A DNA stretch of 41,469 nucleotides from a virus: the IMG/VR virus record IMGVR_UViG_3300046376_000041, positions 1-41,469 of that record. One strand, written 5' to 3'. Positions 520 through 40,624 of this stretch are shown piece after piece; the first letter of the stretch is position 1, and each line of letters opens with the position of its first letter. Made by a program: the position numbers and the translations under genes. The notes under the pieces are model-generated. The model was given only the letters and a program-made list of their open reading frames with translations, was not told the origin of the DNA and ran no database searches.

Positions 520-555
520 TCCATGCGATAGCACTGATGGCGAGGTAACGCATCA

Positions 556-8894: not shown

Positions 8895-8906
8895 GGAGGA
8901 CGCACT

Positions 8907-25668: not shown

Positions 25669-25970
25669 TTGCCGTCCCGCGGATAAATGTCGGGTCGCAA
25701 TGCGTGGCGTGAGACGCCGGTCAGCCGTTCGATGGTCAGCACGCGTTCGGCTGGCACCTGGCTCTGGAGCCAAGTCTGGATTGCCTGATACGAGACGCCC
25801 AGCCGGCGACCCAACTCACGCTGGCCGCCGACACGTTCAATGGCCTGCTGGAGTGCTGGTTCATCCCCGCGAGTGCAGGGAACGTCCGCCGACACGTTCA
25901 ATGGCTTGCTGGAGTGCCGGTTCATCCCCGGACGCGGGGAACGTGCTCGCTGATGAGGTGCCTTGCTCAT
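25665..25970 (-). CDS. YdaS/Cro-like HTH protein, N terminus rewritten by mini-array B
   Basis: Residues 39-101 (ALQQAIERVGGQRELGRRLGVSYQAIQTWL...LTIERLTGVSRHALRPDIYP) form a compact Cro/YdaS-type DNA-binding protein with HTH around RELGRRLGVSYQAIQTW. Residues 16-38 are encoded by two CRISPR-like repeats and a spacer (including VPCTRGDEP, the peptide such repeats give in this frame). The spacer also encodes ALQQAIERVGG in another frame. ATG 25970 yields 101 residues; a shorter native start may exist. It may bind the palindrome at 26001-26019 just upstream. Confidence 0.7.
   Translation of the reverse strand: MSKAPHQRARSPRPGMNRHSSKPLNVSADVPCTRGDEPALQQAIERVGGQRELGRRLGVSYQAIQTWLQSQVPAERVLTIERLTGVSRHALRPDIYPRDGK
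25857..25945 (-). CRISPR. CRISPR-like mini-array B (2 repeats, 1 spacer)
   Basis: Repeats lie at 25857-25885 (degenerate stem, GCAGGG instead of GCGGGG) and 25918-25945, separated by a 32-nt spacer at 25886-25917. The 32 bases left of the first repeat (25825-25856, inside the HTH coding sequence) match the spacer at 31 of 32 positions; the single change is synonymous (CAA/CAG, Gln). Thus each repeat is followed, in crRNA orientation, by the same 32-nt sequence, in exact 61-base register. The array is inside the reading frame of the HTH gene. Confidence 0.88.
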
Positions 25971-26000
25971 GCCTGACAACATAATGCTGTCGGGGCCTTT

Positions 26001-26019
26001 TGGCAAGGTATAATTGCCA
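26001..26019 (+). promoter_or_regulatory. Operator-like palindrome over a -10 box
   Basis: TGGCAA (26001-26006) and TTGCCA (26014-26019) form a perfect 6-base inverted repeat with a 7-base centre. The centre and right arm contain TATAAT (26009-26014), a consensus -10 for the rightward hydrolase gene at 26040. No good -35 is seen (about 25986), suggesting activation. The adjacent HTH protein, transcribed away, is the natural candidate regulator. Confidence 0.6.
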
Positions 26020-26039
26020 CCGCCAATAGGAGTATTCAC

Positions 26040-27275
26040 ATGCAAGCCAAGCGCATTGCCAACCTGATCGAATTGTTCGGCGTCAACACGTTCTCCTCGC
26101 CCGACGAGCACAACACCTGGGGCAGTTGGCCCGCCAATTATTCGCCCGAGAGCGTCATCAAGGCGCTGAAGTATATCGTCGGCGACAGCGGCTTCGCCTT
26201 GCGGCTGCGCGAGTATCACTATGCTGGACGCTGCGATATGCAGGCCGAATGGCTGCCGCAGATCGTCGCTGCATTTCCCGGCACCAGGGTCGCACTCTGC
26301 CCCGGCGCCAACGCGTCGGTCGATGACGTGCCGACCATGCTCGCGCTCGCTGCCGATCCGCGCAACGGCGTCGCCTGGATCGAGGGGCTCAATGAACCGA
26401 ACACGGATTTTGGCAGCGGCCAGGTTCCGTACGAAACCACCCAGGCGATCCAAGATGCGTGCTGGCAGGGCCGTCGCAGTGTGGACGTGGGCATCATGGG
26501 GCCGTCGATCGTGGCCGGAACGCCGCACCCCGAAGGTTGGATTCAAGGCTACTGCGAGACGCCGGAAAATCTCGCTGCACTGAACGCCGCCATGCACGAA
26601 GGCCAAGGGCACTATTATCCGCCTGGCAGCCCGGACGTGCCGAGCACCGGCTATTCGGTGAACGAGTACATCGGTGGCCTGTGGACCGCCTATGCGCAGA
26701 AAACCATCCACCTGACCGAGTTTCATCCGACGCTCTATAACTCGGAGGGCAACAAACCGGATGAGGCCGGATGGTCGGGCCAGCGTGATGCCTACTACAC
26801 CCTGACGACGCTCCTGCGCTGCGCGCAGAACGGCACCCAGGGACTTTGGTGGTACGCCTTGTTCGATTATGGCACGACGTATAAATGTGGTCTGTTCCCG
26901 CAATATGGCGACACCGACCCTCGCCCGACGGCCACTGCGTTGCGGGCGCTCTGTGCGATCTGTGCCGACCGGGGCGACCGCCACAACTTCGAGACCGGCG
27001 AGCTTCACGTGGAGATCAGCGGATTGCCGGAGACGGTGTCCGCCGAGGTCTATCAGGCGAGCGACGGACGCTTCCTGGTGCCGATCTGGCATTCGGCGGC
27101 AGAGCTTGACCGCCAGCCCGTGGTCCGGGTGCATGTGACGTTCGGCGAGACCGTGGGCGAGGTGACGCTGTACGATCCGCTGCACGGGGTGACGCCGATC
27201 TGGCGACAGACAGAGGCCGATGAAGTGCGCATCGATATGCCGCCCGGCGTGCGGGTGCTGGAGATCAGTTCGTAA
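26040..27275 (+). CDS. Glycoside hydrolase, clan GH-A-like
   Basis: A 411-residue protein with a TIM-barrel glycosidase signature. WIEGLNEPNTDF (about residues 116-127) has the Asn-Glu-Pro acid/base motif, and TIHLTEFHPTLYN (about 221-233) holds the probable nucleophile Glu, both at strand ends as in clan GH-A. The last 90 residues (GELHVEISGLPETVSAEVYQ... to VRVLEISS) form a beta-sandwich. No signal peptide is seen. It may digest capsule or exopolysaccharide, as a free depolymerase or a particle part; family membership (for example GH39-like) is not fixed. ATG 26040 follows AATAGGAGT. No separate endolysin was found. Confidence 0.8.
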   Translation: MQAKRIANLIELFGVNTFSSPDEHNTWGSWPANYSPESVIKALKYIVGDSGFALRLREYHYAGRCDMQAEWLPQIVAAFPGTRVALCPGANASVDDVPTMLALAADPRNGVAWIEGLNEPNTDFGSGQVPYETTQAIQDACWQGRRSVDVGIMGPSIVAGTPHPEGWIQGYCETPENLAALNAAMHEGQGHYYPPGSPDVPSTGYSVNEYIGGLWTAYAQKTIHLTEFHPTLYNSEGNKPDEAGWSGQRDAYYTLTTLLRCAQNGTQGLWWYALFDYGTTYKCGLFPQYGDTDPRPTATALRALCAICADRGDRHNFETGELHVEISGLPETVSAEVYQASDGRFLVPIWHSAAELDRQPVVRVHVTFGETVGEVTLYDPLHGVTPIWRQTEADEVRIDMPPGVRVLEISS

Positions 27276-27465
27276 GATCCCGCTCGATGTCGTCAGCGAT
27301 CTTCCGCAACAGTGCAGGCAGCTTCGCCGTGACCTCGAAGGTCGCCTGAACGCTGAAGCCGCTGCCCTTCGATCCGCCGATCACGATGACGATGACGCCC
27401 TCGGCATTCGCGCCCTCGCGGACCAGCGTCGTGAGATCATCATACTTTCCTTGGCCAACCGCCAT
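27265..27465 (-). CDS. Hypothetical protein, 66 aa
   Basis: A small protein convergent with the hydrolase gene, overlapping its end by 11 bases. It has a short N-terminal helix, a beta hairpin (GVIVIVIGGSKGSGFSVQATFEV) and a C-terminal helix (LPALLRKIADDIERDL). The fold looks compact and the sequence is non-repetitive. Small proteins of this type recur in phage early regions without known function. Confidence 0.6.
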   Translation of the reverse strand: MAVGQGKYDDLTTLVREGANAEGVIVIVIGGSKGSGFSVQATFEVTAKLPALLRKIADDIERDLTN

Positions 27466-27552
27466 TTGATGTTCCCATGGTAGACGAGGTGTGATGCGAC
27501 GCCAGGGCTGAGCGTGCTACGCTGCGGCTCTTAGCCTTACCCACTCAATTCA
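27466..27552. other. Short intergenic interval
   Basis: I see no gene here. It separates the 27265 gene start from the terminator. On the minus strand TTGAGT and TAGCAC could be weak promoter elements for the leftward 27465 gene, but they are not convincing. Confidence 0.3.
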
Positions 27553-27586
27553 GCCGGCACCCCCCGTCCTTGGTGCCGGCTTTTTT
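27553..27586 (+). terminator. Rho-independent terminator, rightward
   Basis: GCCGGCACC (27553-27561) pairs with GGTGCCGGC (27572-27580), a perfect 9-bp GC-rich stem with a 10-base loop, followed by TTTTTT (27581-27586). It would end transcription coming from the glycoside hydrolase gene. Mini-array C begins ten bases further right. Confidence 0.88.
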
Positions 27587-27595
27587 GTGCCCGGG

Positions 27596-27684
27596 TAGTT
27601 CATCCCCGCATATGCAGGGAACAACGCCGCGGCGTATTTCTCGCCCTCGATCGCCACGGTCCATCCCCGCCTAGCGGGGAACAG
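27596..27684 (-). CRISPR. CRISPR-like mini-array C (2 repeats, 1 spacer)
   Basis: Repeats are at 27596-27624 (degenerate, GCAGGG) and 27657-27684, with a 32-nt spacer at 27625-27656. In crRNA orientation the spacer begins TGGCGATCG and encodes VAIEGEKYAAA; the ERF gene ends VAIVGEDKIAAG. The two DNA segments align at about 24 of 32 positions with one three-base gap. The array lies 10 bases beyond the ERF stop, so it may be carried on the ERF operon transcript. Confidence 0.85.
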
Positions 27685-27694
27685 GAATACGATA

Positions 27695-28567
27695 TCAGCC
27701 CGCGGCGATCTTGTCCTCGCCGACGATCGCCACCTCGTCCGACGGCTGAGCCGGATCGGGTGCCAGTCGTGCGAAGTGCTGCGCCAGCAGTTCAGACACG
27801 CGCCTGCGAATGTCCGGCGGGGCTTTGGCGACGGCGTTCCTGACCGACACATGGCCGCCGGCCTCGGTCACCTCGTCCTGGCTGGTGCAGGCCGCCAGCA
27901 CTCGCTCCAGGTTGCCAAGCCAGATGTGGCCGTTCGGCTCGTCGAGCGGTGCCAGCCATGCTGTGTCGTAGGCAGGCACCTTCTCGGCGATGCGGGCAGC
28001 GCGCGGCATCGGGGCGGCGGCGGCGCGGCGGGTGCCTTCGCCATCGTCATCGTCATCCGCCAGCACGATGTTGAACACCATGCCCAACAAGTAGCGGCGT
28101 AGATACGTGACGGCCGAGCCGACCGACTGGACTGGCGTCGTGGCTGTGCGACCACCCTGGGAGCCTGGATTGCCCAGCGGTGCGTCCAGGTAGTTCTCCT
28201 CGAAATAGCCTGCCGCATGGGCCACGGTGCAGGTCAGACGGATGGTGCCTTCGCTGGGGGACGGCGCAGAACCATAGCGCACCGAAAAACCATGTCGGGT
28301 GTAGATCGGACGCATTTCCCGATCGATGTCCTCCAGCTTGGCGTATTTGTTCCCGAGATGCTTGTTCTGGGCGCTGCGAACAACCGGCAGCATCTCGGCT
28401 TGAGCCTCGGCCATCGCCTGATTGAAAGCGCGGCGCGACTGGTCGTGGCCGACATCGCGCTGCAGCCGCAGCAGTTCACCGAACTTTTGCACATCGAACT
28501 CGGGGTCTTTGGCAGCGCGCTCGATGAACGACATCAGAGCGCCGTTGGCAGGGGTGATCTCGTTCAT
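27695..28567 (-). CDS. erf: ERF-family single-strand annealing protein
   Basis: A recombinase that anneals complementary single strands, used for circularising or repairing phage DNA. The N-terminal 190 residues match the ERF superfamily: FAELLRLQRDV-like helix, FNQAMAEAQAEMLPVVRSAQNKHLGNKYAKLEDIDREMRPIYTRHGFSVRY, TCTVAHAAGYFEENYLDAPLG and VQSVGSAVTYLRRYLLGMVFNIV. The short acidic stretch DDDDDGEG precedes a variable C-terminal domain. ATG 28567 has AGGA at eight bases; ATG 28573 is too close. It is the last gene of the pL operon. Its final codons are echoed by the spacer of mini-array C. Confidence 0.92.
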   Translation of the reverse strand: MNEITPANGALMSFIERAAKDPEFDVQKFGELLRLQRDVGHDQSRRAFNQAMAEAQAEMLPVVRSAQNKHLGNKYAKLEDIDREMRPIYTRHGFSVRYGSAPSPSEGTIRLTCTVAHAAGYFEENYLDAPLGNPGSQGGRTATTPVQSVGSAVTYLRRYLLGMVFNIVLADDDDDGEGTRRAAAAPMPRAARIAEKVPAYDTAWLAPLDEPNGHIWLGNLERVLAACTSQDEVTEAGGHVSVRNAVAKAPPDIRRRVSELLAQHFARLAPDPAQPSDEVAIVGEDKIAAG

Positions 28568-28579
28568 GGTCATGGTCCT

Positions 28580-28885
28580 CTAGGAAGTTTTGCGGCGCAG
28601 GTTGAAGACCTCGCCATCGTCGCTGATCCCGCGCACCTCGACGCGCTTGTCGGTCACCGTGAACGTGAACTGCTCGACAATGTCGGGATACATGGCGCGA
28701 AGCTCTTTGATGTCCGTGCGCGTGGTCGCTACGTCTTTGATCTCCACGGCGTAGCTATTGCCCGTGCGTGCCTCCGGGTCGGCTATCATGATGGCTTTCA
28801 GCTCGCGCTCGCGGGACGAGAGCTGTTTGATGGTGTCCCGGACTGCGAACAACTCATCGGCGGGCGGCAGGTTGTCAGTCGGCAT
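28580..28885 (-). CDS. Hypothetical early protein, 101 aa
   Basis: A 101-residue acidic protein: an N-terminal helical hairpin (DELFAVRDTIKQLSSRERELKAIMI) and a beta-rich second half (SYAVEIKDVATTRTD, EQFTFTVTDKRVEVRGI, FNLRRKTS). The layout resembles small phage proteins encoded next to annealing proteins and nucleases. Its ATG (MPTD) is the same start codon context as the upstream gene. Function unknown. Confidence 0.65.
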   Translation of the reverse strand: MPTDNLPPADELFAVRDTIKQLSSRERELKAIMIADPEARTGNSYAVEIKDVATTRTDIKELRAMYPDIVEQFTFTVTDKRVEVRGISDDGEVFNLRRKTS

Positions 28886-28889
28886 CGTC

Positions 28890-29075
28890 TCAATCCCTCT
28901 CGGCACTGGCGCGGAACATCGTCGCCAGCAGGCGAAGCAAGGTCGCAGCGTCGTCCGGCATCTCTCCAGATTCCACCTTGCTCGCCATGTTCTCGGCTGA
29001 CTCTGCGCACACGCGGAACGTGTCTCGCGAGGCTCTTTTCATGAACGCCAGCACGCCCTTCACGTCAGTCGGCAT
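28890..29075 (-). CDS. Hypothetical early protein, 61 aa
   Basis: A helical protein with three probable helices (DVKGVLAFMKRASRDTFRVC, AESAENMASKVESG, DDAATLLRLLATMFRASAERD). The start at 29075 (MPTDVKG) overlaps the upstream gene by 11 bases and begins with the same ATGCCGACTGAC as the next gene downstream, pointing to a duplicated start region. No family is recognised. Confidence 0.6.
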   Translation of the reverse strand: MPTDVKGVLAFMKRASRDTFRVCAESAENMASKVESGEMPDDAATLLRLLATMFRASAERD

Positions 29076-29283
29076 CGTGGTCCTCATGCAGACGATGGAA
29101 ACCCAGCCGCACCTCGGGGGCGTCCAACCTCATGGGGATGTTCTCCATGAGCTTCACGCGCTCAGCGAGATCCATCAGGACCGATGCCAAGTTGGCGGCC
29201 GCACGGGGCGGGATCGGCTCGTCGCGGATGGCGAATCCAGCGCACCAGTCGGCGACGTTCTGGTATTCGGCTGCGACGGTCAT
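29065..29283 (-). CDS. Hypothetical early protein, 72 aa
   Basis: A 72-residue acidic helical protein (YQNVADWCAGFAIRDE then PRAAANLASVLMDLAERVKLMENIPM). ATG 29283 overlaps the previous stop by ATGA. Part of the tightly packed pL operon in which nearly every junction overlaps. No motif reveals function. Confidence 0.6.
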   Translation of the reverse strand: MTVAAEYQNVADWCAGFAIRDEPIPPRAAANLASVLMDLAERVKLMENIPMRLDAPEVRLGFHRLHEDHDAD

Positions 29284-29483
29284 GCGACGTCACCTTCATC
29301 ATCCGGCGGCAGCAGGTCGGGGTGCTGCAGTGGCACCACCCGGCGCGGGCGACGGCGGCCCTCGGCCTGCGCCAGCAACATTCTGATTTCCTCGACACGG
29401 GCGCGGACCATCGCCGCCTCCAGCTCGAGCGAGCGCAGACGCTCACGCAAGCGGTCGGTCATGGTGTCACTGGTGTCGCTCAT
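29280..29483 (-). CDS. Coiled-coil early protein, 67 aa
   Basis: The N-terminal 45 residues form a heptad-rich helix (MTDRLRERLRSLELEAAMVRARVEEIRMLLAQ), then a basic patch (GRRRPRRVVPL) and an acidic tail (DLLPPDDEGDVA). The overlap at 29480-29483 sets the start; an upstream extension of the frame to 29597 lies inside the neighbouring gene. It could bind DNA or a partner protein. Confidence 0.6.
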   Translation of the reverse strand: MSDTSDTMTDRLRERLRSLELEAAMVRARVEEIRMLLAQAEGRRRPRRVVPLQHPDLLPPDDEGDVA

Positions 29484-29686
29484 GGGGCAGCGCTCCATTG
29501 CGGGAAGTGGCCGGGGTATTTGCGGTCGAGGTCTTCGAGATAGTGGTGGAAGGCGGTCATCACCTCTGGCTCCAGGGCAACGACGTGATCGCCGCAAAAC
29601 TCGCGTGGCGCGCGGAGGATCACCTGCCAGCCGTCAAATGAGGCGTAGAGGCCGTCGCCCAGATAGGTCTCTGGATGCTCGCTCAT
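29480..29686 (-). CDS. Hypothetical early protein, 68 aa
   Basis: A small alpha/beta protein: a beta hairpin (YLGDGLYASFDGWQVILRAPRE) then a helix (EVMTAFHHYLEDLDRKY). The pattern YLGDGLYASFDG...ILRA recurs in small phage early proteins. Both ends overlap neighbours by four bases (ATGA). Function unknown. Confidence 0.65.
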   Translation of the reverse strand: MSEHPETYLGDGLYASFDGWQVILRAPREFCGDHVVALEPEVMTAFHHYLEDLDRKYPGHFPQWSAAP

Positions 29687-29928
29687 GGCGTTGTCCTCGG
29701 TGCTGGATAGGCGATGACTGCGCGCCCTTCGTCGGTGAGGCCGACCATCTCATCGCCGACATCGCAGTCGAAGCGTTCGGCTTCCTCGGCCGTCGCCGGG
29801 CAGACGTGGGCCAGGCCGCTGCGCAGCAGCGCCGCCTCCAGCTCGGCGCTATCGATGCCCATGCCGCTCTGGTGGAAGTCCCACATGTCGGCGAAGAACC
29901 GGGACAGCATGCGCTCAGTGTCGCTCAT
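29683..29928 (-). CDS. Hypothetical early protein, 81 aa
   Basis: Starts MSDTERMLSRFFADMWDFHQSGMGIDSAELEAALLRSGLAHVCPATAEEAERF and ends with EMVGLTDEGRAVIAYP (key parts only). One helix leads to a small wing-like segment, a shape seen in small phage regulators and chaperones. ATG 29928 overlaps the previous stop. No family is recognised. Confidence 0.6.
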   Translation of the reverse strand: MSDTERMLSRFFADMWDFHQSGMGIDSAELEAALLRSGLAHVCPATAEEAERFDCDVGDEMVGLTDEGRAVIAYPAPRTTP

Positions 29929-30335
29929 GCCGGCCTCGTGGATTGGCTGTGGGCCACGGCGGCGGCGAAGGCCCGGCGCGTGGGATCGCGGTGATAGATG
30001 CGCCAGTAGTGACACGCAGCCTGCGCCTCGCGGCGGGCGACATCCCGGTCACTGTCGGAGGCGTGGCGCCATTCCTCGATCAGCATCAGCGCGCGATGCA
30101 GCGAGGCGGAGCGGTCGTCGCGCCACACCGGGTTGGTAGCCAATCCCCGCACGCGCGGGGAACATGCAGCGAGGCGCGCGCCGTCCGCGGCCAGCGCCGG
30201 TTCATCCCCGCGCGTGCGGGGAACATCACCAATAGAGTGGCGCGCTACTATTGCCTCGGCTAGGCGTGCGCCACGCTCGGCTAGCGTCATGTCGAGCACT
30301 GGCGCGGGGCAGGCTGCATCGTATGCTGGCGTCAT
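29925..30335 (-). CDS. Hypothetical early protein with in-frame mini-array D insertion, 136 aa
   Basis: Residues 1-36 (MTPAYDAACPAPVLDMTLAERGARLAEAIVARHSIG) and 70-136 (PVWRDDRSASLHRALMLIEEWRHASDSDRDVARREAQAACHYWRIY...) look like ordinary protein. Residues 37-66 are encoded by mini-array D and include VPRTRGDEP and SPRVRG, the peptides that such repeats specify. The insertion is 90 bases, so the frame is kept. The spacer inside encodes ALAADGARLAA, a diverged copy of TLAERGARLAEA upstream. ATG 30335 overlaps the previous stop. Function unknown. Confidence 0.6.
   Translation of the reverse strand: MTPAYDAACPAPVLDMTLAERGARLAEAIVARHSIGDVPRTRGDEPALAADGARLAACSPRVRGLATNPVWRDDRSASLHRALMLIEEWRHASDSDRDVARREAQAACHYWRIYHRDPTRRAFAAAVAHSQSTRPA
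30137..30226 (-). CRISPR. CRISPR-like mini-array D (2 repeats, 1 spacer), inside a gene
   Basis: Repeats at 30137-30165 (degenerate left end, TAGCCAATCCCC) and 30198-30226 (near consensus) flank a 32-nt spacer at 30166-30197. The spacer matches 30259-30287, coding sequence of the host gene just upstream, at 21 of 29 ungapped positions, several changes being synonymous. The total of 90 bases preserves the reading frame. Confidence 0.85.
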
Positions 30336-30508
30336 CGCCGACCATTGTCCCGTCTGACCAGTGGCTCCAGCCGCTTCGTCACCAGTTCCAGTTGCTCGCG
30401 GGTTTGCTGGCCGAGGCGGCGGCGCAGTATGTTCTGCAATGTCAGGTAGATATCGTGCAGAGCGCTCATCGCCTCCGCGTAGGTCACGGGGCGTGGACGC
30501 CGTGGCAT
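30332..30508 (-). CDS. Hypothetical early protein, 58 aa
   Basis: The first gene of the pL operon. A basic start (MPRRPRPVTYAEAM) is followed by two helices (ALHDIYLTLQNILRRRLG and REQLELVTKRLEPLVRRD). The stop overlaps the next ATG (ATGA at 30332-30335). The sequence TTGGAGTACC before ATG 30508 supplies the ribosome-binding site. Positive charge suggests nucleic acid contact, but no family is recognised. Confidence 0.6.
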   Translation of the reverse strand: MPRRPRPVTYAEAMSALHDIYLTLQNILRRRLGQQTREQLELVTKRLEPLVRRDNGRR

Positions 30509-30783
30509 CGATGGTACTCCAACTGATTTTTTTGGTTTCGGTTACAGGGCTGTTGAATCCGCGGTATTCTGCGGAAAAATGGCCGATCGTTAACCCGCCA
30601 GTCATGTTAGATTGACGCTGCGAATCCGGGTTTTGCTGGACCGCAAGGGGTTCTGGACTAGGAAAAGTACCGGTAGTGACTACGCTGTGATGGGTCGCGT
30701 TGATTGATTGCGTTCCGAAAAAGACAGCGGGGAGGATTAGATGACGCACAGGCTAGTCTCCGGCAGATCATTGTCTGGACCGG
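30509..30783 (-). other. Untranslated leader of the pL transcript
   Basis: About 265 bases lie between the inferred pL start and the first early gene. No convincing gene is present on either strand. It contains TTTTTTT (30529-30535) and CCGC/GCGG arms (around 30560-30575). Such a long leader could hold an antitermination site, relevant because this phage encodes a NusG-like protein, but I see no recognisable nut site. Confidence 0.4.
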
Positions 30784-30812
30784 AAGTTAGGACTTATAGT
30801 CCTGTGCGTCAA
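30784..30812 (-). promoter_or_regulatory. Leftward early promoter pL with operator OL
   Basis: On the minus strand, TTGACG (30812-30807) and TAACTT (30789-30784) are separated by 17 bases. Between them lies the palindrome GGAC-TTATA-GTCC (30790-30802). The same geometry occurs in the rightward promoter near 31299-31326. A repressor bound here would block the early operon that ends in ERF. Confidence 0.8.
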
Positions 30813-30837
30813 GAAAAAAGGGGGGGGTCTGGCGGAA

Positions 30838-31236
30838 TTATCCCGCCGACACGCTATCGGGCCGATCGTGTATCCTGGGCCGATGACGGCTGCTCGGTGG
30901 AGAATTGTTGCTATTGTCGGGAGTTGGAGCAGCAGGTGGCCAGCTCAGGCCCGGATGTGCCGCTTTCAGCTTGGCCGCTAGTTCTGGCTCAACACCGGCG
31001 AGTGAACCCCACAGCAAATAGTCCGGGGAAATGCGCAAAACGTGACACAGCATCTTCAGAAGAGGCACTGACGGCATACGCATCCCGCGCTCGATATAAC
31101 GGATAGTACTGGTATCCACCCCCGCGTCGGCGGCTAGGCGCGTCGGGCTGCCGCTGACCATCTCACGCACCCAGCGCAAGCGTTCGCCAAAGGCAACCGC
31201 CTCCTCCTTTTGCTCTTCGACGCTCGTGCGCGGCAT
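30838..31236 (-). CDS. CI-like phage repressor (XRE HTH)
   Basis: A 132-residue regulator with an XRE-type HTH at residues 15-75: FGERLRWVREMVSGSPTRLAADAGVDTSTIRYIERGMRMPSVPLLKMLCHVLRISPDYLLWG (key core RLAADAGVDTSTIRYIERG). The C-terminal part is Pro/Ser/Asn-rich without a visible LexA-like self-cleavage domain (no Ala-Gly or Ser/Lys dyad), so induction may use another route. It is divergent from the Cro-like gene, and the 101 bases between hold two GGAC-N5-GTCC sites; a third is at OL. This is the immunity repressor by position. Confidence 0.85.
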   Translation of the reverse strand: MPRTSVEEQKEEAVAFGERLRWVREMVSGSPTRLAADAGVDTSTIRYIERGMRMPSVPLLKMLCHVLRISPDYLLWGSLAGVEPELAAKLKAAHPGLSWPPAAPTPDNSNNSPPSSRHRPRIHDRPDSVSAG

Positions 31237-31254
31237 TTTACGGCTCCATCCTAC

Positions 31255-31326
31255 TGTCCAACAAAATGGGACATTCTGTCCTAAACCGCAAGCATGACTT
31301 GACGTGTGGACCCGGTGTCCTAGAGT
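31255..31326 (+). promoter_or_regulatory. Right operator region OR with pR (and pRM candidate)
   Basis: pR: TTGACG (31299-31304), 16 bases, TAGAGT (31321-31326), with operator GGAC-CCGGT-GTCC at 31308-31320 between the boxes. A second operator GGAC-ATTCT-GTCC is at 31269-31281. On the minus strand TTGCGG, 17 bases and CATTTT bracket it, a poor but plausible promoter for the repressor gene. A wider half-site pair, TGTCC/GGACA, is at 31255-31273. Confidence 0.8.
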
Positions 31327-31337
31327 ATCCCCCAGTC

Positions 31338-31559
31338 ATGAACCGGCACGCCAGGATTGTAGAAGCGCTGGGGGGGTCCACTCGGGTGGCCAGTCTGTTG
31401 GGACTGAAGGAAAACACCGTCTCCAAGTGGAAGCGCCGGGGCATTCCGTCGCACCACTGGCACCGCGTCATAGCCCTCTCGCCTGACCTCACGCCGGAAC
31501 TGCTGGACCGTACCAAGCCCCGCTATACCCAGCGGCGCTGCTGCGAGGCCGCCGAATGA
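31338..31559 (+). CDS. Cro-like HTH regulator, 73 aa
   Basis: A small DNA-binding protein of the YdaS/carph-type: MNRHARIVEALGGSTRVASLLGLKENTVSKWKRRGIPSHHWHRVIAL, key core VASLLGLKENTVSKWKRRG, then DLTPELLDR. It is the first gene behind pR and divergent from the repressor, so it should act like Cro to commit to lytic growth. ATG 31338 is chosen because the frame upstream overlaps the promoter. The stop overlaps the next ATG (ATGA). Confidence 0.85.
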   Translation: MNRHARIVEALGGSTRVASLLGLKENTVSKWKRRGIPSHHWHRVIALSPDLTPELLDRTKPRYTQRRCCEAAE

Positions 31560-34523: not shown

Positions 34524-36028
34524 GCGAACAACGGGACTCCGAATACGCCGATCTGCGCGGTGAGCCGCTGCCGGACCACCTCGCTGCATTCTGGGACAGG
34601 CTGGACGAGCCACAGCGCGCTATCATCCGCGGCCAACACTGGCGCCTGCCGAATTTCAACCATCCCCTGGCGGTTTCTGCCTGCGTGACGCTGTTCCTGG
34701 CGAACAACCTGACGCTCGATGATGCGCTGCAGTTCGTCCGGTTCGATGACGGGCTGGGGTGGTTTCAGCCGCTGCATGGCGAGCTGCTGCGGCAGGAATG
34801 GCAGCGCCGGCTGGACGAAGAGGCCAAGCAACGCGTCGCCGCGGATAACGCGGGCAAAAAGGCGGCAGAATACCTGGTGGTCACCGACGAGCCCTGGGAG
34901 CCGGCCACGCTTCCCGCGCGCCCGTGGCTCGCCATGCCATACCTGATGCGGTCGGAACTCACTTTGCCGCACGGGCCGGGCGGCGGGGGCAAGTCGCAAC
35001 TCGCCATCGCCTGGTCGGTCGCGCTCGCCCTCGGCAAGCCATTCGGCCGGCTCTGGCCGAAGCAGCGTGCCCGTGTCGTGCTCACCAATTTCGAGGATAG
35101 CGCCGACGAACAGAAGCGGCGGATCACCGCTGCGCTGGAGTTTTTCGGCGTTGGCCCGGCGCAACTGAAGGGCTGGCTCTACCGGGTCTGTGTCGGGCCG
35201 AATGGTGACGCCACGATGTTCGAGATCGACGAGCGTGGCGCCGTCGTGACGACGCCATGCTTCGATGCTCTGGTGTCGGCCTGCGAGACAATCCAGCCGG
35301 ATTGTGTGTTTCTCGATCCTTTGGTGGCGATCAACGCGGTGCCGGAGGCCGACAACCAACTGATGCGCCGCATGATGGTCATCCTGCGCGCTCGGCTGGC
35401 GCACCAGTTCAATGCCGCCGTGGTCCCGCTGCACCACGACAACAAGAGCGGCGACGACAACGAAGGCTCCGACCAGACCAACGTGCGGGGCGGCGGCGAC
35501 ATCGTCAACGGCGTACGGTTCGAGCTGGCGGTGAAGAAGATGACCGTGCTGCAGGCCGAGCAGATGCAGATCGACCCGGCCCGGCGCGGCTATTACTTCC
35601 GGCTCGGTTCGCCGGCATCGAAGCTGAACTATTCCGCGCCCGAGGAAAGCGAATGGTTCGAGCGGCTGACCGCGATCATCAACGAGGAGGAGGTTGTCCG
35701 ATGCATTCCCTGGGAGCCGCCATCCGGCAAGCTCGACCAGGCGCAGATCAGCCGGCTGATCGAGGCCATCGAGAAAGGCACCAAAGTCGGGCCGTATTCC
35801 CCGCAGCTTGGTAATACCGATCGGTCCCTTGGACCCGTGCTGGTCGAGGTCGGCGTTGTGGCAGCAAGCGCTCAACGCTGGGCCTTACGGACGCTTTACC
35901 AGTCAGGCCGGGTCGTCAAGGCGAAGTGGAAACTCCCTGGGCGCGGCTCCGATGAGCGCTCCGGGCTCCGCACCGACGCCGGATTACCCTACAACTGGGA
36001 GTGGAGTGACCGTGATGATGAACCCTGA
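34520..36028 (+). CDS. RepA-like replicative helicase / AAA ATPase
   Basis: A 502-residue RecA-fold ATPase. The Walker A motif GPGGGGKS lies at about residues 152-159, Walker B-like CVFLDPLVAIN at about 260-270, followed by VVPLHHDNKSG and NVRGGGDIVNGVRF. This resembles the RSF1010 RepA-type hexameric helicases (AAA_25 family) found in many alphaproteobacterial phages and plasmids. The N-terminal 130 residues are helical (probable loading domain), and the C-terminal 110 look like a winged helix. GTG 34520 overlaps the previous stop. No DNA polymerase is encoded, so host polymerase is used. Confidence 0.85.
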   Translation: MSEQRDSEYADLRGEPLPDHLAAFWDRLDEPQRAIIRGQHWRLPNFNHPLAVSACVTLFLANNLTLDDALQFVRFDDGLGWFQPLHGELLRQEWQRRLDEEAKQRVAADNAGKKAAEYLVVTDEPWEPATLPARPWLAMPYLMRSELTLPHGPGGGGKSQLAIAWSVALALGKPFGRLWPKQRARVVLTNFEDSADEQKRRITAALEFFGVGPAQLKGWLYRVCVGPNGDATMFEIDERGAVVTTPCFDALVSACETIQPDCVFLDPLVAINAVPEADNQLMRRMMVILRARLAHQFNAAVVPLHHDNKSGDDNEGSDQTNVRGGGDIVNGVRFELAVKKMTVLQAEQMQIDPARRGYYFRLGSPASKLNYSAPEESEWFERLTAIINEEEVVRCIPWEPPSGKLDQAQISRLIEAIEKGTKVGPYSPQLGNTDRSLGPVLVEVGVVAASAQRWALRTLYQSGRVVKAKWKLPGRGSDERSGLRTDAGLPYNWEWSDRDDEP

Positions 36029-36347
36029 TGCTGCGGCGCACAACATCCTCCCAACTTTTCCAAAAACGCCCTACGGCTTGGAAGAAGTTGGGAGCCGTTC
36101 CGAGCCTCCCAACTTCTTCCGTAGGAGGGCGCCAAATGTTGTTAGGAGGCTCCCAACTTCCTCCCAAGATCGCTCCCAACTTTCCGAAAATCCTCCCAAG
36201 TTTCCCGAGGAGCCTCCGCAACCACCAGATGCACCACCCTGGTTGCAGGCGGCGTATCACGTCGCCCTCGCGGATGCTCTGCTGCGCGGCGACCAGGTCG
36301 GCGCCAATGCGCTGCGCTACCGGCTGCGCGCCCTGGAGGCCCGATGA
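36015..36347 (+). CDS. Iteron-containing hypothetical protein, 110 aa
   Basis: The gene starts in the end of the helicase gene (ATG 36015) and ends with ATGA. Its N-terminal half is Pro/Ser-rich and repetitive (PTFP, PPNFF, LPTSS, PKFP), simply because the DNA carries repeats of CTCCCAACTT. The C-terminal 40 residues (PPWLQAAYHVALADALLRGDQVGANALRYRLRALEAR) form an amphipathic helical domain. It may be a replication accessory; or the repeats may be the functional part. Confidence 0.55.
   Translation: MMNPDAAAHNILPTFPKTPYGLEEVGSRSEPPNFFRRRAPNVVRRLPTSSQDRSQLSENPPKFPEEPPQPPDAPPWLQAAYHVALADALLRGDQVGANALRYRLRALEAR
36048..36202. repeat. Iteron-like repeats, candidate replication origin
   Basis: CTCCCAACTT is found exactly at 36048-36057, 36106-36115, 36150-36159 and 36173-36182, and inverted at 36085-36094. 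Variants lie at 36161-36170 (CTCCCAAGAT) and 36193-36202 (CTCCCAAGTT). Seven copies in 155 bases, next to the helicase gene, fit iterons bound by an initiator. They lie within a reading frame, as in lambda's O gene. Spacing is irregular, so a transcription or other role is also possible. Confidence 0.7.
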
Positions 36348-36436
36348 CCCGTCGGCACGCGCCAGATCCGGGAGGACATCCCCACGGACATGGGGCGGGA
36401 CATGACCCCAGACATGTCCGGGGACATCCGCCATGA
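36344..36436 (+). CDS. Possible His/Gly-rich micropeptide, 30 aa; GGACAT cluster
   Basis: A 30-codon ORF linked by ATGA overlaps at both ends (36344, 36433). The peptide is His/Gly/Pro/Arg-rich (PGGHPHGHGAGHDPRHV). The DNA holds GGACAT at 36374, 36386, 36398 and 36422 plus ATGTCC at 36414, so the composition may reflect a protein-binding site more than a peptide. Metal binding by the histidines is possible. Confidence 0.4.
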   Translation: MTRRHAPDPGGHPHGHGAGHDPRHVRGHPP

Positions 36437-36609
36437 CCAACCCCAGCCTCTGCCATGGCCACCGCATCTTCCCGTTCGGCTACGAATGCCACTGGCTCCG
36501 CTGCCCCGTCCTCTGGGACGACGAGTTGTGCATCTTCCGCCTCCACGACGACGACCCGAACCCAGACGACGACCCCAGATGCCGCCCGCAGGACCACCAT
36601 GCCGCTTGA
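36433..36609 (+). CDS. Cys/Asp-rich small protein, 58 aa
   Basis: Begins MTNPSLCHGHRIFPFGYECHWLRCPVLWDDELC and ends with an Asp/Pro-rich tail (DDDPNPDDDPRC). Five cysteines and several histidines in the first 35 residues suggest a small metal-binding domain. It overlaps both neighbours (ATGA at the start; its end overlaps the NusG-like gene by 11 bases). Confidence 0.5.
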   Translation: MTNPSLCHGHRIFPFGYECHWLRCPVLWDDELCIFRLHDDDPNPDDDPRCRPQDHHAA

Positions 36610-37189
36610 CCTCCAACCGGGTAGCCAGTTAGATGCCCCCAGCCGCGAGACGCAGCCGCACCTCCGGTGCTACAGCATTCGCGCCCGGTGGGCCTGCGTC
36701 TACACCCACCCTCAAGCCGAGTTCTGGGCCAATGCCAACCTGAAACGCGCCGGCTATCGCACCTACCTCCCAACCTGCGCCGTCCAGCGCCGCGACCGCG
36801 TCATCCCAACCCTGCGACACACCGTCACCGTCCCATTGTTTGCCCGCTACCTGTTCCTCCGCTTCAACCACCGCGCCGAAAGCTGGTCTCCCATCCGCGC
36901 CGCTCCAGGCGTCGCCGATCTCGTCCGCTCAGGTCCAGATCTGCACTACGCCTCAGACGAGGCTGTGGACGCGCTACAAGCTGCCCAGGCTCTGTCCGCT
37001 ACCCAACCACCAGAAAACGCCCAATGGGCGCCAGGGGCCGCCGTAGCCGTCGCAGCAGGGGCGTTCGCAGGTCACCCAGCCGTCGTTCTCGCCGTCTCAC
37101 GACATTCCGCCACCGTCGCCCTCATGCTGTTCGGCGAATTGCGGAATGTCACAGTCGATGTGGATTGTCTTGTGGCTAGAGATGAGTGA
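36599..37189 (+). CDS. NusG/RfaH-like transcription factor
   Basis: A 196-residue protein. The NGN domain is clear at residues 24-115: CYSIRARWACVYTHPQAEFWANANLKRAGYRTYLPTCAVQRRDRV then VTVPLFARYLFLRFNHRAESWSPIRAAPGVADLVR. A C-terminal KOW-like segment follows (WAPGAAVAVAAGAFAGHPAVVLAVSRHSATVALMLFG...VTVDVDCL). Such proteins bind RNA polymerase and promote elongation, in RfaH's case only on specific operons. A phage copy may support late transcription or antitermination. ATG 36599 is chosen since the upstream frame lies in the Cys-rich gene. Confidence 0.85.
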   Translation: MPLDLQPGSQLDAPSRETQPHLRCYSIRARWACVYTHPQAEFWANANLKRAGYRTYLPTCAVQRRDRVIPTLRHTVTVPLFARYLFLRFNHRAESWSPIRAAPGVADLVRSGPDLHYASDEAVDALQAAQALSATQPPENAQWAPGAAVAVAAGAFAGHPAVVLAVSRHSATVALMLFGELRNVTVDVDCLVARDE

Positions 37190-37557
37190 TGCCCGCTAGA
37201 CTTAACCCGCGACAGGATGAAAGAGCCCGCTCAGCCATCCAGACAACACAGTTGTGCAGGCGATTGAACGCGTTTGCTTTAGGACAGCCAGATCCAGCCG
37301 GCGGAAATGGGCGCAATCCGCGCGAAAAGTTCGAAATGTCCGACGCACAAATCCGCGCTGCGCTCGGTCTGCTGCGCAAAACCATCCCCGATCTCGCCGT
37401 CACCACCATCGCCGGCGACGCCGCAAATCCCGTCTCGTTCGTCATCCGCGCGCCGTCGCCCGTCGAGTCCACGCAGCAATGGCTCGCGCAATACGCCCCC
37501 AAGACCATCGACGCGCAGCCCGCAGAGACGGACGACGCGCCAGTGCCGACGGAATAA
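37189..37557 (+). CDS. Hypothetical protein, possible small-terminase-like, 122 aa
   Basis: The middle region, SAIQTTQLCRRLNAFALG then EKFEMSDAQIRAALGLLRKTIPDLAVTTIAG, resembles proteins found beside terminase genes in other phages (with the pattern MSxxQxxAAxxLLxKxxPDL), some annotated as small-terminase-like. The C terminus is acidic and flexible. It ends the rightward operon; GTG 37186 or ATG 37189 is the start. No other small terminase candidate is seen, so this is the best one, but the support is weak. Confidence 0.55.
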   Translation: MPARLNPRQDERARSAIQTTQLCRRLNAFALGQPDPAGGNGRNPREKFEMSDAQIRAALGLLRKTIPDLAVTTIAGDAANPVSFVIRAPSPVESTQQWLAQYAPKTIDAQPAETDDAPVPTE

Positions 37558-37558
37558 T

Positions 37559-37771
37559 TTAGCGAAACCCCTCGATCCAGCGGCGCACAGCAGATGCATC
37601 GCCGTCCATGAGATACCGCATCCCAAGCATCATCAGGTGGGGGTTGCAGCCCAATTCCGGGTGCTTGTCCAGGTCGCTGCCCATCGAGGCCACAGCATTC
37701 GCCAGGTCACCGTCGTCGAGGTATTCCAACGCCCGGCGCTTGCACCAGGCAAGATGTTCTGTCCGTGTCAT
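37559..37771 (-). CDS. Hypothetical protein, 70 aa
   Basis: A 70-residue helical protein beginning MTRTEHLAWCKRRALEYLDDGDLANAVASMGSDLDKHP and ending YLMDGDASAVRRWIEGFR (key parts). The pattern TEHLxWCKxRALEYxDxGDLxxAxASMxSDLxKHPE is common in small phage proteins of unknown role. ATG 37771 overlaps the stop of the HTH gene (ATGA). The stop lies one base beyond the convergent rightward gene. Confidence 0.75.
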   Translation of the reverse strand: MTRTEHLAWCKRRALEYLDDGDLANAVASMGSDLDKHPELGCNPHLMMLGMRYLMDGDASAVRRWIEGFR

Positions 37772-37974
37772 CGCACTCTCCAATCATCCGGCACCGCGTG
37801 CTTCTCGTGACACGCAGCCATGCGCAACAGCCAGCGTGCGATACTCGGCGGAATGTCGGCTCTCCCGGTTGCCCAGCGCCAGACAATCACGTTGTCGCAT
37901 TCGAGGATGGCGGCCAACTGGCGTTGCGACCAGCCGATTGATCGCAGCGCCGTCTGCAGTTCGTCAGCCGTCAT
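37768..37974 (-). CDS. Small XRE-type HTH protein, 68 aa
   Basis: MTADELQTALRSIGWSQRQLAAILECDNVIVWRWATGRADIPPSIARWL is an HTH whose recognition part is RQLAAILECDNVIVWRWATG. A short helical tail follows. It is coded inside the operon driven by the promoter at 38527-38556, so it may autoregulate by binding the inverted repeats there. ATG 37974 overlaps the preceding stop. Confidence 0.8.
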   Translation of the reverse strand: MTADELQTALRSIGWSQRQLAAILECDNVIVWRWATGRADIPPSIARWLLRMAACHEKHAVPDDWRVR

Positions 37975-38168
37975 GCGCGTTTCGCCCGGATCATGCGAGC
38001 GCGCTGCGCCCGAAGCTCGTCGGCTTCCTTCACCGTCGCAGCGTGCAGCGCCTTGGTGCGCTCCAGCAGCGCGTCGATGTCTGCGCCGAGGCTGCGGATG
38101 CGACGCCCGAACGTGTCGGCGTCAATGCGGCCCATGATCTGGCGAGTAAGTGCGTCGGTCTTGGTCAC
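37971..38168 (-). CDS. Coiled-coil protein, 65 aa
   Basis: A helical protein (RIRSLGADIDALLERTKALHAATVKEADELRAQRARMIRAKRA, heptads of Leu/Ile/Ala). I place the start at GTG 38168 because CGAAACCGGAGACAGAC lies just upstream, the same sequence that precedes the 38500 start. The frame is open further up to 38237. Function unknown. Confidence 0.6.
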   Translation of the reverse strand: MTKTDALTRQIMGRIDADTFGRRIRSLGADIDALLERTKALHAATVKEADELRAQRARMIRAKRA

Positions 38169-38209
38169 TGGTCTGTCTCCGGTTTCGTTGCGGAAGATGC
38201 GGAAGGATT

Positions 38210-38500
38210 TCATCGCAATGCGTTCCGCACGATCCACGCACGCGGAATACCGCCGTCGTCATACTCAGCATTAAAGAACTCGCGCGGTGTCGCATGCTTA
38301 CCCTTCCAGCGCGGATCTGCAGCAGGGTCATCAAGCGCCACCACAACACACTCGCCGTAACCCCAGAACTCAAAGGCGGGGATCTTGCTGGCAGCTCTCT
38401 CGGCGCTGTCGGTCGCGTGTATTACGCACTCAGGTGCTGAGTGTTCATCGTGCGCCTCCAGCCGAATGATAACGTGCGTCCTGCTCGGGTGAATGTTCAT
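38210..38500 (-). CDS. Hypothetical protein, 96 aa
   Basis: First gene of the leftward operon. An alpha/beta protein: HVIIRLEAHDEHSAPECVIHATDSAERAASKIP then FEFWGYGECVVVALDD and a C-terminal segment GIPRAWIVRNALR. ATG 38500 follows CCGGAGACAGACG. The transcription start inferred from the promoter at 38527-38556 is only some 20 bases upstream. No family is recognised. Confidence 0.65.
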   Translation of the reverse strand: MNIHPSRTHVIIRLEAHDEHSAPECVIHATDSAERAASKIPAFEFWGYGECVVVALDDPAADPRWKGKHATPREFFNAEYDDGGIPRAWIVRNALR

Positions 38501-38518
38501 CGTCTGTCTCCGGTTTCG

Positions 38519-38570
38519 ATGTCCGCAATATATGTCGTCAGAACGACGACTGTCAACAGAATGCGGACAT
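38519..38570 (-). promoter_or_regulatory. Near-consensus leftward promoter within nested inverted repeats
   Basis: On the minus strand TTGACA (38556-38551) and TATATT (38532-38527) are 18 bases apart. The promoter is bracketed by ATGTCCGCA (38519-38527) and TGCGGACAT (38562-38570), perfect 9-base arms. Inside the spacer lies GTCGT-CAGA-ACGAC (38534-38547). Two operators for one or two regulators are likely. Confidence 0.82.
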
Positions 38571-38596
38571 TTCTCCATACGTCTTTCGCATGACTG

Positions 38597-38806
38597 ATGC
38601 GTGATTCGTTCATCGACGACCGTCTGCTCGACCGCATCATGCGGGAGATCTACCCCCAGATGATCGTGGCGTGTCGCGCGATGTCGCCCGAGGCGGTGCG
38701 CCAGTTCATCGCGGAGATGCAGCCGGCGATCCGGCGGGACTATCGTCTGGCGCAGATGCGGGCACTGACCGCTGACCGGCAGCAGCGCAATGCCACAGAC
38801 TGGTGA
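38597..38806 (+). CDS. Hypothetical protein, 69 aa
   Basis: Rightward, divergent from the 38500 gene. A helical protein: MRDSFIDDRLLDRIMREIYPQMIVACRAMSPEAVRQFIAEMQPAIRRDYRLAQMRALTAD in key parts. The start ATG 38597 lies 27 bases beyond the inverted repeat at 38562-38570. No strong ribosome-binding site is visible. No family is recognised. Confidence 0.55.
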   Translation: MRDSFIDDRLLDRIMREIYPQMIVACRAMSPEAVRQFIAEMQPAIRRDYRLAQMRALTADRQQRNATDW

Positions 38807-38883
38807 ACGTGAGCGATGTTCTCCGTCTGGAAATCAATCTTATCGGACGGAATGACCCAGCCGCCGACGTCTAGACCTCTCGG

Positions 38884-39030
38884 ATGATTGTCGGCTGGCC
38901 GCAGGACCGCATAAAGCCACGAACCGAACCGCCCACGATCGGCGCAAACCGGACCACCTCGCTCAACGATATCAACCGATTATTCACCAGCACGTCACAG
39001 CGCACACCCGCGCCGCAGCGTAGACGCTGA
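38884..39030 (+). CDS. Possible small protein, 48 aa
   Basis: In the 38807-39065 interval the best ORF is ATG 38884 to TGA 39030. It would give a basic, Thr/Pro/Arg-rich product (MIVGWPQDRIKPRTEPP...). A weaker 23-codon ORF (GTG 38803) overlaps the previous stop. Neither has a clear ribosome-binding site, and nothing else is recognised in this stretch. Confidence 0.3.
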   Translation: MIVGWPQDRIKPRTEPPTIGANRTTSLNDINRLFTSTSQRTPAPQRRR

Positions 39031-39065
39031 CGGTGTCTACACCTCAAACTGGAGAGACAAGTTTC

Positions 39066-39575
39066 ATGGCAACGACTTTTCCGATTCCTGAAGGCAGCGT
39101 CATCATCATCCCCGGTGGCCCCGACAATACGCTTCCCGGACAGCCGCCCGGCATCTGGCCAAGCCCAGGCCACCCAGCACATCCCATCGTGCTACCGCCG
39201 CCGCCGCCTGGGATCTGGCCGCCACCTGTCAGCATCTGGCCGCCGACTCCGCTGCCGCCGGATTATCCGATGCCGCCGGGCAGCATCTGGCCGCCTGTCG
39301 TTGGCGGCGGCCCGGTCTATCCGCCGCATCCGGATCAAGGTCTGCCCGGTTCACAGCCGCATCCTGACCAAGGTCTTCCTGGCGATCAGCCATACCCGGA
39401 TCAGGGGCTTCCAGGTGTCCCTGGGCATCCAGACCACGGCCTGCCATCGCAGAAGTTCTTGGTGGCGATCGTCGCAGTGAGTGCGGCCGGCGGCCTGGAT
39501 GTCGTTGGCTACACCGTCGTCGATCCGTCGCTGTCGGTTGGCTATCCGCTGCCGCCTCATCCTGAACCGAAGTAA
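39066..39575 (+). CDS. Proline-rich repeat protein, 169 aa
   Basis: Residues 15-85 are made of GIWPPP-type units (PPGIWPSPGH, PPGIWPPPVSIWPPTP, PGSIWPPVVGGG). Residues 90-130 hold four copies of a HPDQGLPG octapeptide. The C-terminal 40 residues form a small beta domain (KFLVAIVAVSAAGGLDVVGYTVVDP). ATG 39066 follows CTGGAGAGACAAG. The layout suggests a rod-like structural or surface protein. No signal peptide is seen. Function unknown. Confidence 0.65.
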   Translation: MATTFPIPEGSVIIIPGGPDNTLPGQPPGIWPSPGHPAHPIVLPPPPPGIWPPPVSIWPPTPLPPDYPMPPGSIWPPVVGGGPVYPPHPDQGLPGSQPHPDQGLPGDQPYPDQGLPGVPGHPDHGLPSQKFLVAIVAVSAAGGLDVVGYTVVDPSLSVGYPLPPHPEPK

Positions 39576-39585
39576 CGCCGGTCTG

Positions 39586-39807
39586 ATGTCTGAGCCGACC
39601 GGCAATGGTGGCCATACGACTGTCATCCAAGCCGGGATCAAGCTGGGGCAGTCAGTCGTGCATGGACTGGCGCCCCAGTTCCTCGCCCTCATCATCGTCA
39701 ATGTGCTGTTCCTGGCGGGTCTGTTCTGGTTCGTGGACGCCCGCGCCACGCACACCGCGTCGGTGCTCAATCAATTGCTGCAGGCGTGCCTCGCCAATCC
39801 CCGCTGA
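39586..39807 (+). CDS. Single-span membrane protein, holin-like candidate, 73 aa
   Basis: The pattern GGHTTVIQAGIKLGQSVVHGLAPQFLALIIVNVLFLAGLFWFVDARATHTASVLNQLLQAC, by key parts, has one transmembrane segment (FLALIIVNVLFLAGLFWFV) with a short periplasmic helix. Similar small proteins occur in many phages and have been proposed as holins. The last codons and the stop TGA lie inside the first repeat of mini-array E (LANPR, stop), so that insertion has set the current C terminus. Confidence 0.65.
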   Translation: MSEPTGNGGHTTVIQAGIKLGQSVVHGLAPQFLALIIVNVLFLAGLFWFVDARATHTASVLNQLLQACLANPR

Positions 39808-39880
39808 CGCAGGGAACACGCACTGGCCACGGCGGCGAGCAATGCGAGTTTCGGTTCAACCCCGCGAGTGCGGGGAACAC
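39791..39880 (-). CRISPR. CRISPR-like mini-array E (2 repeats, 1 spacer)
   Basis: Repeats at 39791-39819 (degenerate, GCAGGG and CCAATCCCC) and 39852-39880 (near consensus) flank a 32-nt spacer at 39820-39851. In crRNA orientation the spacer encodes KLALLAAVASA and matches 39959-39990, the signal peptide codons of the next gene (KAILLAAVASV), at 23 of 32 positions including a 13-base run. The gene lies on the opposite strand from the array. Confidence 0.87.
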
Positions 39881-39955
39881 GCCATCCATGTCATGGGGAG
39901 CCATCCATGTCTATTGGCCGAAGTGTCTACAACGCACACCAAAAGGAGTGACCCC

Positions 39956-40624
39956 ATGAAAGCCATTCTGCTCGCCGCCGTTGCCAGCGTTGCCCTGCTT
40001 GCCGCTCCGGCCCATGCCACCCAGATCACCGCGTTCGGCCAGACCAGCCAGGCCAACACCATCACCGCGACGGCCAACGGCACCGGCACGCAGACCACCA
40101 TCACCACCAATGGCACGGGCGCGTCTGTGCTGATCGATCAGTTGTTCGGCGTCGTCACGCCACCGGCCATTGCGGGCTTCTTCAGCCTCACCGCAACCAG
40201 CATCGACGCGGCACAGACAGCACTGGGTGCGATTATCCAGCACTACGCCGGCAGTTTCAGCCTAACCTCGGGCGCCGGTGGCACGGGCACCAACGAACTC
40301 AGCGGCACGTTCTCCGACGCGGCATTCGGCGTGAATGGCGGCACGCAGTTGTCGGTCAACGTCGCCAACCCACCCGATACCCTGTCGCTGTCGTCCAGCG
40401 TGATACCGGCGGCTGATCTGGTGGCGCCGTCGTCGTTCACGCTGAGCATGTCGAACCTCGGCGCGCTCTCGCTCGACAACGCCACGATCGCGGCGTTCAC
40501 CTCGTCGTTCTCGGGTGTCGCCAACGCCACGACCGTCGCGGCGGTGCCTGAGCCTGCATCGTTTGGGCTGCTCGCCGTCGGCATGCTGGGCATCCGCCTG
40601 TTCGCCCGGCGGCGCGTTGTCTAA
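39956..40624 (+). CDS. PEP-CTERM sorting-signal protein
   Basis: A 222-residue exported protein. Residues 1-21 (MKAILLAAVASVALLAAPAHA) are a Sec signal peptide. The mature part is Thr/Ser/Gly/Asn-rich and beta-structured. The C terminus has the tripartite PEP-CTERM signal: VPEPASFGLLAVGMLGIRLFARRRVV, that is the Pro-Glu-Pro motif, a transmembrane stretch and a basic end. In bacteria this signal is processed by an exosortase. A phage carrying it implies surface display in the host. AAAAGGAG precedes ATG 39956. Confidence 0.9.
   Translation: MKAILLAAVASVALLAAPAHATQITAFGQTSQANTITATANGTGTQTTITTNGTGASVLIDQLFGVVTPPAIAGFFSLTATSIDAAQTALGAIIQHYAGSFSLTSGAGGTGTNELSGTFSDAAFGVNGGTQLSVNVANPPDTLSLSSSVIPAADLVAPSSFTLSMSNLGALSLDNATIAAFTSSFSGVANATTVAAVPEPASFGLLAVGMLGIRLFARRRVV

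Follow-up and report, generated by a model that had tools for sequence, protein, structure and literature searches.

The stretch of 41,469 nucleotides analysed here (IMG/VR virus record IMGVR_UViG_3300046376_000041, positions 1 to 41,469; in the following, the window) is a complete phage genome of 41.3 kb with 64% GC and a 127 nt direct terminal repeat. It contains 11 repeats of the type I-E clustered regularly interspaced short palindromic repeats (CRISPR), which are distributed over five scattered mini-arrays in a single orientation. No cas gene was recognised among 30 open reading frames checked against PHROGs and seven proteins checked against Pfam. The mini-arrays are probably used for an allele-linked targeting of related phages through the type I-E machinery of the host. 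This reading builds on the array anatomy, matches in relatives flanked by a protospacer adjacent motif (PAM), the allelic position of the arrays, altered alleles in the phages' own genomes and one apparent cassette transfer, all of which were observed. The mini-arrays are as follows, with the order in the CRISPR RNA (crRNA) given for the two spacers of A:

370 to 520, minus strand: mini-array A, three repeats and two spacers (crRNA order 459-490, then 399-430), between a gene ending at about 354 and a gene starting at 556
25857 to 25945, minus strand: mini-array B, two repeats, spacer 25886-25917, between the start and the helix-turn-helix part of a cro/YdaS gene
27596 to 27685, minus strand: mini-array C, two repeats, spacer 27625-27656, immediately 3' of the ERF gene
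30137 to 30227, minus strand: mini-array D, two repeats, spacer 30166-30197, within the gene starting at 30290 and in frame with it
39791 to 39881, minus strand: mini-array E, two repeats, spacer 39820-39851

The repeats are spaced by 61, 60, 61, 61, 61 and 61 nt, which is the canonical 60-61 nt, and because of the shared orientation the crRNAs would be read from the minus strand. Mini-arrays B and D are in frame within neighbouring genes (starts at 25970 and 30290, respectively) and the reading frames are unbroken. The cro-like gene reads MSKAPHQRA, then array B, then ALQQAIERVGG; its homologue in L008 has no array (G and L numbers are labels of related IMG/VR phages or contigs). Repeats inside one array differ from each other, but the stem CCCYGC/GCGGGG shows no or almost no variation across 20 repeats of the phage family. 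Mismatches in the 5' handle amount to 0.33 in the first repeat of the arrays and 2.67 in the last (p = 2.5e-5). The last repeat of an array needs no 5' handle; this decay was taken as supportive only, because terminal repeats of cellular arrays decay, too. One last repeat, GTGTTCCCTGCGTCAGCGGGGAT, is shared by arrays at different loci and in more than one phage (window E, G001, G005, G006, G007, G008 and G012), while the first repeats vary. Judged by their sequences, mini-arrays sharing this last repeat may have a common ancestry or a common source.

Diverged phage-borne repeats and the lack of recognised cas genes would also fit RNA anti-CRISPRs (Racr), i.e., solitary repeat units by which phage CRISPR repeats use or affect host Cas proteins (PMC10651486). 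The repeats would then be decoys for host Cas proteins and the spacers irrelevant. Here, however, the repeats occur in pairs or triplets at the canonical 60-61 nt and enclose functional-looking spacers, which have PAM-flanked matches in relatives, and a decoy function is considered highly improbable.

Related phages were obtained by IMG/VR scans with ERF, the repeats and the protein of the gene starting at 556 (556 gene), which gave a family of phages of about 40 kb, several with similar mini-arrays. No I-E array was found in the portions first examined of the ERF relatives L002-L019. The same arrays occur in independent metagenomes (G001/G002 and G009/G012), by which an assembly artefact was rejected.

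An earlier note, made from the sequence of the window, proposed that the spacers derive from homologous genes of related phages. This is well supported by sibling protospacers with I-E PAMs at homologous loci: spacers of G012 match G001 with 33/33 (PAM ATG) and G019 with 30/33 (PAM AAG), a G008 spacer matches G021 with 31/33 (PAM ATG) and an L123 spacer matches L154 with 31/33 (PAM AGG). A G001 spacer matches G020 with 28/33 (PAM AAG). The best site in a relative carries AAG, ATG or AGG for 11 of 11 matched spacers, the functional PAM set being that of E. coli I-E. A match in relatives next to an I-E PAM is found across the family and, in the window itself, for spacer A alone: in L154/G014, which has no array, the homologue of the 556 gene is matched at its start by one of the two A spacers (27/33, PAM ATG). 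Spacer C matches the ERF end of G033 with 25/28 when a gap is allowed. The best relative allele for spacer B is the cro allele of G023 (25/33), where ACG, not an I-E PAM, is present; scans with cro and PEP-CTERM gave no better alleles for spacer B (25/33) or spacer E (19/33). Bacterial genome stretches carrying a related repeat (55 stretches, 811 spacers) gave no convincing phage match (best 27/32).

The arrays occupy allelic positions. A homologue of the targeted gene lies within about 0.9 kb of the array for 9 of the 11 matched spacers, at 0-126 nt in eight cases and at 800 nt in one (binomial test, 5e-8 at p0 = 0.1); when long genomes only were considered, it was near the array in 5/7 (p = 2e-4 at the generous null of 0.1). 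At one locus, G020 is empty and arrays are inserted after the same TAGCAC in G001 and G008; their spacers are different and both match the MKHVVSVPWTDE start of array-less alleles. At the A locus, the window and L123 have arrays with different spacers, whose matches lie on either side of this locus in L154, itself without array. Array E and one G008 array both adjoin the homologue of the same small membrane protein gene, and their spacers differ as well.

Arrays adjoining their protospacers would also result from spacer-protospacer recombination, by which pieces of host arrays were captured at the targeted site, with selection for targeting being secondary or absent. The earlier note had offered a similar alternative, recombination between host arrays and the phage, possibly by ERF. 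Recombination between phages and CRISPR loci has a precedent in staphylococci (Varble et al. 2019, cited in PMC7099407), the arrays of window B and G044 abut the matching site and the last repeat GTGTTCCCTGCGTCAGCGGGGAT is common to several loci and phages. On the other hand, most arrays are 15-150 nt away from the site, and arrays at one conserved insertion point have different spacers which still match the local alleles (G001/G008; window/L123). Furthermore, such footprints account for the origin of the arrays, but not for the loss of PAMs and the recoding of own alleles described below. This explanation is considered unlikely.

For similarity of the spacers to their own genome, 33-nt spacers were aligned without gaps to this genome. 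As a control, local scores in the 300-nt flanks of the arrays were compared with random windows of the same genome. The following own matches were found in the window:

25825 to 25856, minus strand: own copy of the spacer B target, 31/33 (31/32 over these coordinates), 0 nt from the array, abutting the last repeat
27701, minus strand: own match of spacer C, 24/33, 15 nt from the array, ERF C-terminal codons
30256 to 30288, minus strand: own match of spacer D, 23/33, PAM ATG, 28 nt from the array, start-codon region
39958 to 39990, plus strand: own match of spacer E, 24/33, PAM ATG, four seed mismatches, 76 nt from the array, start of the PEP-CTERM gene

Since the own copy of B abuts the last repeat, its PAM position reads CCA, the end of the repeat. 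That the spacers resemble adjacent genes, as claimed in the earlier note, is clear for B, C and E, whose flank scores exceed all random windows (30 versus a maximum of 13, 16 versus 14 and 17 versus 12, respectively), and marginal for D, whose score of 14 ties the random maximum of 14 (p = 0.017). The flank scores of the two A spacers (12 and 11; p = 0.15 and 0.26) are not above chance. Support for the claimed likeness of A to the 556 gene comes only from the relatives, i.e., from the L154/G014 allele. The peptides VAIEGEKYAAA, ALAADGARLA and KLALLAAVASA do read in the frames that had been assigned to them, and spacer D is readable as the start of a homologous gene, with the ATG being the PAM. 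A short exact repeat, ATGCAGCGAGGCG, at 30096 of the window and 68 nt downstream, ties the end of spacer D to sequence left of array D and is separate from the own match listed above.

When 21 spacers of the phage family were combined, the own-flank similarity was significant (Fisher p = 1.4e-8). An unbiased survey was performed with viral contigs found by the repeat pattern alone, using their own 400-nt flanks. In mini-arrays of 1-3 spacers, 14/47 spacers reached p ≤ 0.02 (Fisher 3e-7), whereas arrays of at least four spacers showed no flank similarity (2/50 spacers at p ≤ 0.02; Fisher 0.97). Unrelated phages, e.g., G040, G043 and G044, likewise show own-flank similarity, and the array of G044 abuts the matching own site, as in window B. 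Spacers could, in principle, be copies of the flank made by local tandem duplication when the repeat was duplicated, and B indeed copies 45 nt, including the repeat start, at a spacing of 61 nt. However, alleles of other phages match better than the own flank and have PAMs, and several matches are found on the other strand or at a distance of tens of nt. Tandem duplication is contradicted for every array except B and G044, and we give it very little credence.

The own sites of the spacers are altered. The PAM is lost at B, G005, G006, G008:7428 and G010, the seed has at least two mismatches at A, E, G001, G007, G008:5912 and G012, and the target site is gone in L123. The sites in relatives have kept the PAM and have 0-2 seed mismatches, with the exception of the G023 cro allele for spacer B. 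In G008 (G008:7428), the peptide YDKRTTVGA of the targeted G021 allele is kept and 7/9 codons are changed; a codon test indicated no general synonymous recoding, and G008:7428 is the sole clear case. The target of G012 shows clustered amino acid changes (3/12 codons versus 5/237 elsewhere). The suggestion that competitors are targeted at allelic loci and self is spared holds in the related phages, where the own allele has no PAM or no seed identity. In the window, self-sparing appears clear for A, B and E and is unclear for C and D, which could be incomplete escapes or could have a regulatory role.

Regulation by a degenerate repeat-spacer-repeat unit with a partial match next door is the case of CreTA/CreR. 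In this reading, crRNA-like guides with partial complementarity, at PAM and seed only, would make the host Cascade repress the neighbouring gene of the phage without cutting. Diverged repeats, single spacers, partial matches nearby and many targets at start codons are consistent with such self-regulation, and an own match with PAM and seed is present for window C (24/33, with PAM AGG and an intact seed) and for G043 (27/33 at a distance of 71 nt, with PAM AAG and pairing of the first 9 bases). It is present for these two only: most own sites have no PAM or no seed pairing (A, B, E, G001, G005, G006, G007, G008 twice, G010 and G012). The alleles of other phages match better (up to 33/33), and the own sites are coding N- or C-termini, not promoters. 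Self-regulation is judged improbable.

The apparently transferred cassette was found in G005 and G011, distinct phages with an average identity of 84% over 9.3 kb. Around the array, 627 nt common to both are 99.4% identical, and no other segment shared by two distinct phages of the family is as long or as similar. Its left border is sharp, about 100 nt from the array, and its right border is gradual. For the second array of G005, the corresponding site of G011 is empty. The shared segment fits a movement of array and flank as a cassette.

For allele-linked targeting, the following course is proposed, in which we infer transcription, cleavage, exclusion and homing-like repair. The host Cas6e would process mini-array transcripts to crRNAs. 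Guided by these, the host Cascade-Cas3 would be brought to related phages present in that cell; each spacer is directed at the other allele of the gene beside its array. The phage's own genome would be spared, either because the array occupies the PAM position or because the own allele has changed PAM or seed bases. Guide and immune allele would thus be linked as poison and antidote, and recombination between co-infecting phages (the window has ERF) would rarely part them. Since the arrays sit beside the gene whose sibling versions they match, an array moves jointly with a gene version that resists it. This points to a weapon between related viruses in which poison and antidote are linked, possibly a homing one. 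A cut genome repaired from the array-bearing genome would gain both the array and the immune allele. This would make the array a natural, gene-drive-like CRISPR homing element consisting of the guide only, for which the host Cascade-Cas3 breaks the array-less allele of a co-infecting phage and repair copies the array together with the recoded resistant allele. As expected for such an element, arrays of this family are at or near the site recognised in array-less alleles. Homing is plausible on these comparisons, and we put it forward tentatively.

As in homing endonucleases and in intronless homing or marker exclusion (PMC2988022, PMC10448857, PMC11620839), a cutter would be located beside its target region, self would be immune, relatives without the element would be attacked and the cassette would be transferable. 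The local part, however, is a guide RNA only, the nuclease would be the host Cas3 and homing itself is a proposal.

Several points weigh against allele-linked targeting. A perfect allele, which the earlier note had expected for the six window spacers in related phages, was found for none of them, and D and E have no relative allele. The matches in relatives are maxima over many genomes, whereas the own matches are single values. The own site of C keeps the PAM AGG and an intact seed, and that of D keeps the PAM ATG and has one seed mismatch. Clear cassette transfer was seen once only. No sigma-70 promoter-like site was found near arrays A or E, and a host search by the repeat ATGACCCG matched many lineages (Rhodobacterales, Ectothiorhodospira, Streptomyces and others) and pointed to no single host. 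Finally, 2/11 spacers show no linkage to their targets; both belong to multi-spacer arrays with identical repeats. These arrays, G001:17986-18133 (L189) and G012:37737-37948 (L207), share the identical repeats GTGTTCCCCGCAGGCGCGGGGATGACCCG, and one of the unlinked targets is matched with 33/33. They represent another type of viral array within these phages, of a more ordinary sort.

Genes identified in the window are portal, major head, Hc3, terminase, ERF, helicase and a cro/YdaS-like regulator. Genes at or near the arrays are:

556 to 1041, plus strand: virion-type protein gene adjoining array A, with the start MADLRITVDDAA; the allele matched by spacer A in L154/G014 is MSDTLPPADDAA
25665 to 25970, minus strand: YdaS/Cro-like regulator gene (PF15943, 4.8e-21), with array B inside, in frame
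27695 to 28573, minus strand: gene of the ERF single-strand annealing protein, with C-terminal codons like spacer C (24/33)
39586 to 39807: small membrane protein gene, with the 3' end overlapped by the last repeat of array E
39956 to 40621, plus strand: PEP-CTERM protein gene, ATG at 39956; the protein has a signal peptide and, at the C-terminus, the PEP-CTERM motif (PF07589)

The PEP-CTERM protein is apparently also present in G021; PEP-CTERM sorting signals are normally bacterial, which is a hint at the host. A part of the 556 gene is duplicated near the major head gene, as a 134-nt direct repeat with 71% identity (607-740 versus 9063-9196). A tRNA-Thr (GGT) gene follows directly after the major head gene (8898-8972, minus strand). 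Window positions 1-25000 had no megablast match in INPHARED, relatives of the portal protein were found by tblastn at 30-42% only, and an Rfam search of the window found nothing.

The kind of element is already known. Virus-borne mini-CRISPR arrays with targets in relatives were described for the Saccharolobus portogloboviruses SPV1 and SPV2 (Medvedeva et al. 2019, PMC6858448), where targets close to the mini-arrays were seen and their origin and consequences left unclear. Interviral conflict was modelled by Iranzo et al. 2020 (PMC7099407), who pointed out that spacers resemble own sequences and considered recombination with arrays of the host. SPV1/SPV2 and the phages studied here have in common that the viral genome carries short arrays (1-2 spacers) whose repeats belong to a known CRISPR type. 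The latter, in contrast, are bacterial tailed phages with type I-E repeats, which are strongly diverged and, in one genome, form five scattered arrays; no leader was recognised. They also have arrays inside reading frames, a quantified allelic linkage, a recoded own allele and a transferred cassette. Measured against the open-licence literature, the additions are an allelic rule that has been quantified in phages of bacteria, arrays placed in frame within genes, one allele with recoded codons and a cassette that moves.

Target proximity, unexplained for two archaeal viruses, is here a quantified rule in bacterial phages which is absent from longer arrays. The idea that a guide RNA and an immune allele stay linked as poison and antidote, or are spread by homing, with no nuclease for this encoded by the phage, is thereby made testable. 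If true, it would help to explain the swapping of alleles at intergenic sites of mosaic phages and would be a natural parallel to engineered designs combining a guide with a recoded rescue.

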